From: a virus
Length of the DNA: 23,252 nucleotides
Reading direction: 5' to 3' (one strand)
Virus record (IMG/VR): IMGVR_UViG_3300042887_001469
Span: 1 to 23,252 of that record
Positions within the stretch are counted from its first letter, which is position 1; each line of letters opens with the position of its first letter. Below are positions 6,744-22,418 of this stretch, one piece after another. Position numbers and translations under genes: made by a program. The notes beneath the pieces are model-generated. The model made no database searches. It was not told the origin of the DNA and saw nothing but the letters and a program-made list of their open reading frames with translations.

Positions 6744-6940
6744 TTTGCTACCATTTCGCCACGAACATTTCTTTCCATCTCATATACTGAGTAGATGCGC
6801 CCGTCATGGATAATAAACTCACCGATTGTGGTTTTGGTGATTTCGTAATAATGTCTGTGCGTGGCGTATATTGTCAACGTTGACACAATAACGCCAATCA
6901 AGAACGCGCCAATGGCGATATATATAAGGTCGTTTTTCAT
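6740..6940 (-). CDS. Small membrane protein of unknown function
   Basis: 66 residues. One membrane segment at about 5-25 (LIYIAIGAFLIGVIVSTLTIY) preceded by MKND, then a polar domain (THRHYYEITKTTIGEFIIHDGRIYSVYEMERN). No cleavable signal peptide pattern is obvious, so the C-terminal part may face the periplasm or cytoplasm. ATG 6940 overlaps the previous stop (ATGA). A 14-base perfect palindrome, TGTCAACGTTGACA, lies in its coding sequence at 6872-6885. Confidence 0.7.
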   Translation of the reverse strand: MKNDLIYIAIGAFLIGVIVSTLTIYATHRHYYEITKTTIGEFIIHDGRIYSVYEMERNVRGEMVAK

Positions 6941-16586: not shown

Positions 16587-16621
16587 GTTGGCAGTCTCTA
16601 AAAATGTTGTCATTGTAGGCA

Positions 16622-16639
16622 GTCGTCAAAATTGACGAC
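16622..16639. promoter_or_regulatory. Operator-like palindrome GTCGTCAA-AA-TTGACGAC
   Basis: Perfect 8-bp arms with a 2-base centre, just downstream of the leftward promoter where a bound protein would block transcription. It contains the GTCAA...TTGAC core shared with sites at 17019, 17076 and 17242. The same sequence could also form a hairpin in the 5' leader. Confidence 0.6.
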
Positions 16640-16648
16640 CTGCAAAAC

Positions 16649-16676
16649 ATTATAAAGCAAGTTTTAACTTTTGCAA
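16649..16676 (-). promoter_or_regulatory. Leftward sigma70-like promoter of the small-gene operon
   Basis: On the minus strand TTGCAA (16676-16671), 16-base spacer, perfect TATAAT (16654-16649). It is followed about 10 bases later by an 18-base operator-like palindrome at 16622-16639 and then by the first leftward gene. It is the best -10 in the window. Confidence 0.7.
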
Positions 16677-17013
16677 CATTTTTTGTTGTTTGTTGGCAGC
16701 GTGTCTGTATATGGTGGGCAGTTTAGCAAGTGATTGACTGCCAACGCGCGCGCCCACGCCCCGCCTATGCTGGCGAGTTTGTGGGTGGTTGTAGGTATAC
16801 CATTATCTACTTTAAAAATTAGATGTATATTATATAGGCTATAGAATTCCCCACGAATTTCTGGCGACTTTGTAGGCAGTGCCTACACTGCCTACACTGC
16901 CTACACTTTTAGACCGGCGCAAACTGGCAAGGCGTAGTGTAGGCGGTCGTATCCAGTACTAAATTCATTGCCTACCACTGCCCACAAGCCTAGTAGAACG
17001 ATGTGAAGTAGCC

Positions 17014-17092
17014 TTAGTGTCAATATATTGACGTTTACCCTTGATAAGCTATAGTAATCAATGACTTACAATAACGTCAAATAATTGACACT
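17014..17092. promoter_or_regulatory. Mirror-image operator pair with face-to-face promoters
   Basis: GTCAATATATTGAC (17019-17032) and GTCAAATAATTGAC (17076-17089) are palindromes whose flanks continue as an inverted repeat (AGTGTCAAT...TTGACGTT versus AACGTCAA...ATTGACACT). The inner TTGACG of each is a -35 box. Rightward: TTGACG 17028-17033, 16 bases, TATAGT 17050-17055. Leftward: TTGACG 17080-17075, 18 bases, TACTAT 17056-17051. The two -10 boxes overlap, so only one promoter could fire at a time. Confidence 0.6.
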
Positions 17093-17101
17093 TAGCCTTG
17101 A

Positions 17102-17366
17102 ATCCTCTGTAACCCGCGTATTCCGTGGCTTGCAGGGGATAGGGGGGGGATTAAAATAAAAAATAAAAGCGCAGGCGGGGAGGACTTGACAAGACGACTG
17201 GCAGGCATACCATGTCTAGTAGAAGCATTTTCATATATACCGTCAAATAATTGACGCATAGGGGGGGGCGTTCAATTCCGAAGGCGATGCAAAACATTCA
17301 CAGACAAAAAAGACATTTCCATATATATTATAAATATTTTTTAACGAGCTAAGGATTCATGCGACC
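17102..17366 (+). promoter_or_regulatory. Leader of the packaging operon: promoter, operator and two G8 tracts
   Basis: TTGACA (17186-17191), 16-base spacer and TACCAT (17208-17213) make a candidate rightward promoter. The palindrome GTCAAATAATTGAC follows at 17242-17255. ATAGGGGGGGG occurs twice, with G8 at 17142-17149 and 17261-17268. ATCCTCTG (17102-17109) can pair with CAGGGGAT (17133-17140). A further TATAAA (17329-17334) lies just before terS. AAGGA stands 11 bases before ATG 17367. Noncoding DNA directly before terS is the usual place of cos or pac sites. Confidence 0.55.
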
Positions 17367-17744
17367 ATGCAATCATTTCCATATTCACCAAGAGAGTTAA
17401 AAGTGACAGAGACGCGTCTAAACGCCATTTACGATGCGTCAGCGCTTGGGCTAAAGGGTGACAAGCTAGCCCTCGCTGCGGGGCTACTTCCAAGCGAATA
17501 TCGGCAGTTGTGTCAGCTAGACCCAAACGTCGAGTTAATGACGATGAAGGGCGCTGCCGACGCAGAGGCGCAAATGGCACAGGTGTTAAAAGACGCGGCG
17601 CTAGGTGGCGACACAAAGGCGGCGTTAGCTATCCTTCAGAACGTACACGGGTGGGCAAGCGCTAAGGAGCAAAGCAGAGTGGCGTTTGGCATTACTAATG
17701 CGGACGGTACCGCCGCAAGCCTTGTCATAGGGTGGGAATCATGA
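17367..17744 (+). CDS. terS: Terminase small subunit
   Basis: 125 residues directly upstream of, and overlapping (ATGA), the large terminase gene. The N-terminal region (TETRLNAIYDASALGLKGDKLALAAGLLPSEYRQL) fits a helix-turn-helix for recognising the packaging site, followed by a helical oligomerisation part (GAADAEAQMAQVLKDAALGGDTKAALAILQNVHGWA) common in small terminases. The tail GITNADGTAASLVIGWES would contact the large subunit. Length is normal for the family. ATG 17367 is the only in-frame ATG near the AAGGA site; GTG at residue 13 is a weaker alternative. Assignment rests on position and domain pattern. Confidence 0.88.
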   Translation: MQSFPYSPRELKVTETRLNAIYDASALGLKGDKLALAAGLLPSEYRQLCQLDPNVELMTMKGAADAEAQMAQVLKDAALGGDTKAALAILQNVHGWASAKEQSRVAFGITNADGTAASLVIGWES

Positions 17745-19045
17745 AGGTTGTCATACCCTATAAGCCAAGAGATGTATTTCGACCACTCCACGCAAGAAAA
17801 GAAAGATGGGCAGTTGTGGTTGCTCACAGAAGGGCGGGCAAGTCGGTAGCGTGTATTAATGAATTGATAAAGTGTGCTTGTATGGATTCTAGTGGAGATG
17901 GTAGGTATGCCTACATCTGCCCATACTACTCACAGGCAAAACAAGTTATCTGGGATTACTGTAAGACGTTTACAAAACCCATACCCAACATAAAGGTGAA
18001 CGAAAGTGAATTACGACTCGATTTTCCAAACGGGGCGCGTATTCAGTTATTTGGTGCTGACAATCCTGACAGGTTGCGCGGTCTTTACTTTGACGGGATT
18101 ATTGCTGACGAGTATGGCGATTGGAAGTCAACTGTATGGCCATACGTTATCCGTCCTGCGCTGGCTGACCGCAAAGGGTGGGCGATAATTATTGGGACGC
18201 CAAAGGGTAAGAATAGCTTTTACGAACGCTTTGAAGCAGGAAAACAAGATAAGGACTGCTTTACCCTGCTGTTGACAGCATCAAATTCGGGTATCCTCGA
18301 CCAAGAAGAAATTGACGCGCTGAGGAAAGAGTTGTCGGAGGACGCATGGCTACAGGAGATGGAGTGCAACTTCGACGCGGCGATACCGGGGGCTATTTAC
18401 GGCAGAGAGATGTACGAAGTGGGGCAATCGGGGAGAGTACGACCTTGCTATGACCGCAAACTCAAGACATTCGCGGCTATCGATTTGGGGTGGAGCGACG
18501 ACACGGCGATTTGGTGGTTTCAGGTGGCGGGCAAAGAGCTTAGGTTTATTGACTGCTACAGCAACAGTGGAATGCCTATCGCGCATTACCATGACATTTT
18601 GCAGAGTAAAGGCTATGATTATGGCGAATGGTTATATTTGCCGCACGACGCGAAGGCTAAATCACTGCAAACGGGCAGAAGTATCGAGGAGCAGTTTAGG
18701 TCACTGGGGTGGTCACCTAGAATTGTGCCAAACATATCACTTATGGACGGGATACAAGCCGCTAGGTTATCATTAGCAAACTGTTGGTTTGACCCAAGCT
18801 GCAAAGAAGGAATGGAAGCGCTAACACAGTACCAAAGAGAGTATAATGTAGACAAAAAGGTGTTTAATGAACGACCTAAACACGATTGGACATCTCACTT
18901 TGCTGACGCTTTCCGGTACGCGTGTCTTGCATGGCGTGAACAACGACCAGACGCAGCGCCAAAACCCAAAGCAAAATTCTGGGAAGACCAGTCCTTAGAG
19001 GAGTTGTGGGAACACAGCTCGAAACGTAGAGGTAGACGAATATAA
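17741..19045 (+). CDS. terL: Terminase large subunit (packaging ATPase and nuclease)
   Basis: 434 residues. ATPase domain: Walker A AHRRAGKS (28-35), Walker B GIIADEYG with D123 and E124, and a coupling motif IIGTPKGK. Nuclease domain: AAIDLGWSDDTA (D248), HDAKAKS, and the final acidic residue in HFADAFRY (D389), giving the RNase H-like metal site. Length is typical. It drives DNA into the procapsid through the portal encoded next and cuts the concatemer. ATG 17741 is preferred to GTG 17732 since it overlaps the terS stop. The C-terminus is basic (SSKRRGRRI), as often at the portal-contacting end. The stop overlaps the portal start (TAATG). Confidence 0.96.
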   Translation: MKVVIPYKPRDVFRPLHARKERWAVVVAHRRAGKSVACINELIKCACMDSSGDGRYAYICPYYSQAKQVIWDYCKTFTKPIPNIKVNESELRLDFPNGARIQLFGADNPDRLRGLYFDGIIADEYGDWKSTVWPYVIRPALADRKGWAIIIGTPKGKNSFYERFEAGKQDKDCFTLLLTASNSGILDQEEIDALRKELSEDAWLQEMECNFDAAIPGAIYGREMYEVGQSGRVRPCYDRKLKTFAAIDLGWSDDTAIWWFQVAGKELRFIDCYSNSGMPIAHYHDILQSKGYDYGEWLYLPHDAKAKSLQTGRSIEEQFRSLGWSPRIVPNISLMDGIQAARLSLANCWFDPSCKEGMEALTQYQREYNVDKKVFNERPKHDWTSHFADAFRYACLAWREQRPDAAPKPKAKFWEDQSLEELWEHSSKRRGRRI

Positions 19046-21636: not shown

Positions 21637-22418
21637 TGGCATTATGGGACGCTGGAATATGGGACACCGCGCAGTGGTCTACCATTGAAGCGACTGCGTC
21701 CCTAACGCTTGATGACATCACGTTTGCTAGCACGGGAACACTAACGCATAACGGCACGTTAGCTGTCACGCTTGATGACGTCACGTTTGCTAGTACAGGA
21801 AAGCTAACGCACAACGGCACGTTAACCGTTACGCTTGATGACATCACGTTTGCTAGCACGGGAACACTAACGCATAACGGCACGTTAACCGTTACGCTTG
21901 ATGACGTCACGTTTGCTAGTACGGGGATGCTAAAGCATAACGGCACGTTAGCCGTTACGCTTGATGACATTACGTTTGCGGCTGTTGGCGGGTTCGTCAA
22001 CAACGGTACGCTAGCGCTTACATTAGAGGATATTGCTTTTGTAGCGTCAGGTCATGAGGTTCAATCAGGGCCGTTAGAGCTTATTCTAGATGATATTACT
22101 TTTGAAGCCACAGGCTCGGAAACACCTCCATTCTTGGTAGACCCTAGACGCGGTGGCTTAAAAGCTAAAAAGAAAGAATATAAAAACAACAGCGCCGACG
22201 TTAAGAAAGCAATTGAATATGCTGTTGAAGCAGTGACCGGAGAACCTAAGCCAAAGGTTAAGGTTGCACCTAAAGTTGAAGAAGAACCGAGCACCTTTGT
22301 CGAGGACTATGAAGCAATCCTCCGCATGGAAACTGAAAAGGCTGCACTAGAACTTGCTATCGCGCAAATGCTTGAAGACGAGCGTGATGACGAAGAAGCC
22401 ATACTTTTATTATTATGA
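21636..22418 (+). CDS. Putative virion protein with 21-residue tandem beta repeats
   Basis: 260 residues. After a short Trp-rich N-terminus (LWDAGIWDTAQWS), residues 25-160 are almost seven copies of a 21-residue unit with consensus LDDITFASTGTLTHNGTLAVT; the last copies are diverged and the seventh is partial. The repeat probably stacks as a beta-solenoid or string of hairpins. The C-terminal 90 residues are charged and helical (RRGGLKAKKKEYKNNSADVKKA, KPKVKVAPKVEEEPS, MEDERDDEE-like end). The combination of a repetitive exposed part and a helical anchor suits a virion surface fibre or decoration. Start overlaps the previous stop (TAATG). No family name recognised. Confidence 0.75.
   Translation: MALWDAGIWDTAQWSTIEATASLTLDDITFASTGTLTHNGTLAVTLDDVTFASTGKLTHNGTLTVTLDDITFASTGTLTHNGTLTVTLDDVTFASTGMLKHNGTLAVTLDDITFAAVGGFVNNGTLALTLEDIAFVASGHEVQSGPLELILDDITFEATGSETPPFLVDPRRGGLKAKKKEYKNNSADVKKAIEYAVEAVTGEPKPKVKVAPKVEEEPSTFVEDYEAILRMETEKAALELAIAQMLEDERDDEEAILLLL
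21708..22115 (+). repeat. 63-base coding tandem repeat with 126-base higher-order unit
   Basis: Units start at 21708, 21771, 21834, 21897, 21960, 22023 and 22086 (partial). Units 1 and 3 share GATGACATCACGTTTGCTAG and ACGGGAACACTAACGCAT, while units 2 and 4 share GATGACGTCACGTTTGCTAG, so the first four units look like a duplicated pair of units. Units 5-7 have diverged. Confidence 0.9.

Follow-up and report, generated by a model that had tools for sequence, protein, structure and literature searches.

The GTCAA...TTGAC palindromes of this freshwater phage are three different things: a cluster of sites upstream of the small terminase gene (terS), an RNA hairpin, and a chance match. We tentatively read the sites with a 4-b spacer (N4; A, B and C in the table) as a local cluster at which a dimeric regulator, probably encoded by the host, would act on the start of the packaging/late operon, with the palindrome at 16622 as a separate hairpin and the match at 6872 as chance. 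This is the explanation we prefer, although our confidence in it stops somewhat short of even.

The window, that is, the whole stretch of DNA that was analysed, is a 23,252-b fragment which encodes phage replication genes, the large terminase gene (terL) and the portal. Its relatives by terL include contigs of 37-39 kb, among them the near-complete relatives G001-G004, and the map is circular. Pfam and PHROG profile searches with the terS product gave no match; by eye, an HTH-like segment can be read in it. Note that E-values and counts over related contigs, here and below, stand for non-independent events. A tail-protein-like gene (21705-21979) carries a 63-b in-frame tandem repeat of about 4.4 copies.

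Table. Features in and around the terS-upstream region of the window
Feature	Position	Strand	Basis or remark
In-gene match TGTCAACGTTGACA	6872..6885		destroyed in G001-G004
Hairpin stem at the 5' end of the leftward transcript, RNA GUCGUCAAUUUUGACGAC	16622..16639	-	fold and covariation
Leftward candidate promoter TTGCAA-16-TATAAT	16649..16676	-	consensus match; TATAAT then hairpin in relatives
TGTAGGCA-G-TGCCTACA palindrome and 9-b tandem TGCCTACAC repeat (second repeat family)	16871..16907		
Left site A, GTCAATATATTGAC, T before and G after	17019..17032		exact match
IHF consensus WATCAANNNNTTR match, AATCAATGACTTA	17056..17068	+	only exact match in region
Left site B, GTCAAATAATTGAC	17076..17089		exact match
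G-run	17142..17149	+	read from sequence; kept in relatives
Conserved core GCGCAGGCGGGGAGGACTTGACAAGACGACTGGC, holds TTGACA of candidate promoter	17169..17202	+	column conservation
Right site C, GTCAAATAATTGAC, 125 b before terS	17242..17255		mean column conservation 0.94
Second G-run, a few bases after site C	17261..17268	+	read from sequence; kept in relatives
Candidate terS-proximal promoter CAGACA-17-TATATT	17301..17329	+	consensus match; function inferred
terS (small terminase)	17367..17744	+	place before terL and relatives
terL (large terminase)	17732..19045	+	PHROG terminase large subunit, E 7e-39

A search of the window for GTCAA-N(2-4)-TTGAC gave five matches (at 6873, 16625, 17019, 17076 and 17242), in the places where the initial annotation had seen them. 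Only 0.07 were expected and none of 100 dinucleotide-preserving shuffles reached five, which speaks against a core that simply recurs often by chance. The spacer is 4 b long at 17019, 17076 and 17242 and 2 b long at 16625 and 6873, so that the half-site geometry differs and the five matches are not one class; the assumption of a single kind of site holds for the first three, but not for the other two. The in-gene match, previously noted as a fifth matching word, has been lost through base changes in all four near-complete relatives, and we therefore regard it as a chance match.

Judged over the relatives, the N4 class is better described by GTCA-N6-TGAC, or in full by YGTCA-N6-TGACR, a 16-bp site with half-sites one helical turn apart. 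Conservation of the core in related phages was borne out for these sites: at least one right-hand site, within 200 b of terS, is present in 45 of 46 distinct close relatives, often as a tandem pair 19 b apart (22 pairs). Left-hand sites are found at least once in 34 of the 46 and twice in 17, and A and B are then 56 or 57 b apart (17 cases). The arms are almost invariant and the centre is variable. Some alleles have unrelated sequence in place of site B, and one close relative (L035) is without sites.

The freshwater sites show a strong positional asymmetry, being intergenic and restricted to the region upstream of terS. The four 37-39 kb relatives (G001-G004) have no exact site outside this region, so that the proposed regulon of operons sharing one site is not supported; judging from these genomes, the cluster is local and confined to the packaging side. 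In two related clades, whose TerS proteins are 72% and 65% identical to that of the window, the sites are absent (0/14 and 0/25, respectively), while the HTH-like segment of TerS is almost unchanged. For this reason, we consider TerS an unlikely reader of the sites.

The leftward palindrome at 16622-16639 directly follows the TATAAT of the leftward promoter. The leader RNA folds with -13.2 kcal/mol (z -4.3), and the leaders of relatives vary in sequence (for example GTCAGCAATATTGCTGAC, GTCGTCAATTTTGGCGAC, GTCATCCATTTTGATGAC and AGTTAAAAATATTTTAACT). Compensatory base-pair changes are present on the transcribed strand, with three pairs changed on both sides and some G-U pairs, and the covariation score was reached by none of 500 shuffles. 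Slid versions of the hairpin pair worse; a slide of -3 comes near in covariation score, but then no more than 58% of the cells are paired. The hairpin is kept in relatives although the first gene of the leftward operon differs in some of them. Since the pairing stays while the sequence changes, we interpret this palindrome as a 5'-leader stem-loop, separate from the operator copies. Of the palindromes described between the two divergent operons it can thus be maintained that they are conserved, operator-like and intergenic; a single regulon over both operons, on the other hand, is not supported, as one of its members is this hairpin.

Both candidate promoters named in the initial annotation do exist as consensus matches, namely the minus-strand TTGCAA-16-TATAAT and the plus-strand TTGACA-16-TACCAT (17186-17213). 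The latter begins in a 34-b core that is flanked by sites and has a mean column conservation of 0.98 (over 17171-17204). Its TTGACA is found in 43 of 46 relatives, each time with CATTAT, TACCAT or CACCAT at a distance of exactly 16 b, and by eye the core is homologous to that of the clade with 72% identical TerS. Mean conservation is equally 0.98 in columns 17256-17267 around the second G-run, and 0.97 in the AT-rich block that holds CAGACA-17-TATATT. Relative to the likely start from the core promoter, site C is about 25 b downstream, and the second candidate start follows about 85 b after it. In three related clades, an IHF consensus match occurs in 24/46, 8/14 and 14/25 members, respectively. 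This consensus shares TCAA-N4-TTG with the palindromes, which do not meet it: IHF wants WA where the palindromes have YG at the first two places, and it does not need the GTC/GAC arms that the palindromes conserve.

The same intergenic region contains further repeats. In the window, TGCCTACA repeats, including TGTAGGCA-G-TGCCTACA, are dispersed over 16614-16980; other clades have their own repeats (TTGCTAACAT, TTGTGTACAC), and in the Rhodoferax phage P26218 the stretch before terS contains CTGCTACAA repeats. Such repeats may be iterons. To the left of site A, in the relatives' equivalent of window positions 16900-17018, there is a hypervariable tandem array (L015, L009, L013, L014, L027), the units of which differ wholly between close relatives: GGCAGACAGCAG, TGGAAC, GCTGGT, CAAGGGTAG and GGCTGACCACCTCA. 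The near-complete contigs G002 and G003 break inside this array. In the clade with 65% identical TerS (L127-L140), terS is preceded by modules made up of a C-run and then AARTTTTTTTT, repeated about 40 b apart. Rfam gave no match in the window or in three marine loci, and nucleotide searches with the terS-upstream region and one array gave no convincing match.

We then asked whether the same site is found in other phages. Viral contigs were scanned for arrays, defined as two exact sites 2-32 b apart, with the same half-sites in opposite orientation as a control. Arrays of GTCA-N6-TGAC occur in at least 120 viral stretches, compared with 26 in all for the control. Among the matches listed, an array holds up to eight sites; most arrays are intergenic, whereas most control arrays lie inside ORFs. 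The flanks, which were not set in the search, show a symmetrical preference for Y before (0.90) and R after (0.89) the site. Five tandem TGTCA-N6-TGACA units, 16-17 b apart, are found in L403 (3707-3787) directly before a serine recombinase gene, with a comparable array of five in L423. TTGAC arms are half of sigma-70 -35 boxes, and we tested arrays as -35 elements; this was rejected, as TATAAT is not enriched at 16-18 b in other arrays. Literature searches with the motif strings found no published occurrence.

Out of 60 listed loci with a detectable TerL, 33 have an array within 1.5 kb upstream of it, where 10 were expected. After clustering of TerL at 70% identity, this becomes 10/31 compared with 4.5 expected (the largest of 2000 permutations was 12), which means that a few groups account for the greater part of the excess. 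For this reason, we tested one marine group by protein, gathering the relatives of its TerS without using the motif. This TerS belongs to Terminase_2 and is unrelated to that of the window. A site is present within 700 b upstream of terS in 45 of 51 members, there are none in 126 kb downstream of terS, and the opposite-orientation control is rare. The site type thus recurs in unrelated phage lineages, as seen in this group and in the listed arrays. No sites were found upstream of the terminase in the Pelagibacter phages HTVC027P and HTVC023P, in DSL-LC04 or in Rhodoferax P26218.

Close relatives within the marine group swap GTCA-N6-TGAC units for other boxes in the same terS-upstream stretch: TGATAATnATTATCA, which we take to be a Fur 7-1-7 type box (16 loci), GTTC-N7-GTTC, presumably of the alpha-LexA type (30 loci), TAGAA-N3-TTCTA, in our reading an Irr type box (12 loci), and GTTATATTGTAAC, assumed to be of the Zur type (5 loci). 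These counts include each palindrome on both strands, and they come from loci that are mutually related. All four boxes are absent or nearly so downstream and in shuffles. An unbiased count of palindromes with 6-b arms, headed by TGTCAA-N4-TTGACA, GATAAT-N1-ATTATC and TTAGAA-N3-TTCTAA, finds the boxes again in part without naming them. The 700 b before terS in this group (L517-L577, e.g. L520, L542, L548, L564) also contain TTGTTGYA..TRCAACAA. In the freshwater terS-upstream regions, Fur, LexA, CRP, FNR, ICE, Zur and ArgR boxes are essentially absent, and the clade of the window has only the GTCA site type, in 2-4 copies, unlike the rich marine arrays. A wider reading would be that unrelated aquatic phages keep an exchangeable operator bank for several host repressors before the terminase operon, combining GTCA-N6-TGAC with Fur-, alpha-LexA-, Irr- and Zur-like boxes and sensing or titrating the metal and DNA-damage state of the host, and that the window phage is a minimal, single-type version of it; we consider this conceivable but doubtful.

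In the explanation that we prefer, a dimeric and probably host-encoded regulator would bind A, B, C and, where it occurs, D, and would modulate the start of the terS-terL packaging/late operon, either by repression or by activation. Late transcription might then be switched by the state of the host, as CtrA does in some Alphaproteobacteria phages. A host-encoded regulator is favoured because the sites recur in unrelated phages; the exchange of the marine sites for boxes that resemble those of known host regulators points the same way. That dimeric HTH regulators can use this site geometry is suggested by bacterial genomes, where TGTCAA-N4-TTGACA pairs adjoin marR in three of the genera examined, Demequina, Nocardia and Nakamurella, and a lacI-type gene in Paenibacillus. 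The likeness to MarR-family operators is limited in that these are other hosts and no MarR is present among the small phage proteins scanned. We also compared proteins of the window's clade with those of array-bearing loci in search of a shared regulator gene, and obtained TerL and a few other genes, with no candidate regulator among them. On the other hand, the sites are missing in the two clades with 72% and 65% identical TerS and in L035, there are only 2-4 sites of one type here as opposed to the rich marine arrays, and the excess upstream of TerL shrinks once related TerLs are removed.

The closest published system appears to be the CtrA-site clusters in Alphaproteobacteria phages, which are dense and intergenic in unrelated phages and turn over among close relatives; the phages are pili/flagellotropic LPEG phages, for which 'lytic deferment' has been described (PMC9437464). 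These clusters are of a host-regulator type, as the sites presented here would be, and like them are crowded in one large intergenic region, recurrent and turning over. They differ in their motif, the marine group mixes several site types, and the reader is putative in our case. In the literature on decoys and host boxes in phages we found no precedent beyond the CtrA paper (PMC9437464).

Alternatively, the palindromes and the conserved core could be a pac-type packaging-initiation site recognised by the terminase, as in SPP1/SF6. The SPP1 pac region spans the terS promoters and has three sets of direct repeats (PMC4737164), so repeats and promoter-like elements lie just before and into terS in both cases; moreover, the circular map is what is seen in headful packaging, and the isolate relative P26218 has been described as terminally redundant or circularly permuted (PMC4657236). 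However, the SPP1/SF6 repeats are direct and near the pac cleavage site, while ours are palindromes that do not track TerS: its HTH-like segment is nearly the same in clades without sites, and the marine group has the same sites with an unrelated TerS. Furthermore, SF6 TerS binds DNA without sequence preference (PMC4737164), and contig ends are scattered over the region without a pile-up. Taken together, this makes a pac site unlikely. A cos site at the GC-rich core was rejected as well, given the scattered contig ends and the four near-complete relatives that read through.

Still less probable, in our opinion, is that the sites, the IHF box, the G-runs and the repeat arrays make up the initiator region of a replication origin. 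This would agree with the IHF consensus in three clades, with the AT-rich stretches and G-runs, and with the concentration of a second short-repeat family (TGCCTACA, or TTGCTAACAT in another clade) in the same intergenic region. Yet there are clades without the sites in which the remaining elements are retained, and we know of no initiator that reads GTCA-N6-TGAC. Measured at four-fold sites, the GC skew goes with the direction of the genes and does not switch here; as an indicator of the origin, we found it uninformative.

Lower again we place the possibility that the sites are a decoy (sponge), which titrates a host repressor and derepresses the host regulon and not phage genes. The marine sites would fit such a role, as they are many, stacked in several types, fast in turnover and hundreds of bases before terS. 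The clade of the window, however, has only 2-4 sites at fixed positions close to terS, and so small a number could titrate a repressor only if the genome were present in many copies.

Finally, the suggestion that one phage repressor acts on four sites to control both divergent operons is very improbable: there are indeed four exact palindromes within 640 b, but the covariation of the leftward one, an RNA hairpin with other spacing, and the absence of sites from the other operons of the four 37-39 kb relatives largely refute it, and among the listed Pfam matches (25 of 28 families) of 58 small proteins from the window and from G001 and G004 there is no repressor, ribbon-helix-helix or HU/IHF family, although an unknown fold could be missed, in agreement with the earlier remark that no repressor gene is recognisable.

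If host regulators do read these sites, as in our preferred explanation, when abundant uncultured phages package their DNA and lyse the cell would depend on host physiology, with metal status and DNA damage as possible host inputs. Which sites a phage has, and how they turn over, would then be a readable record of the regulators that matter.
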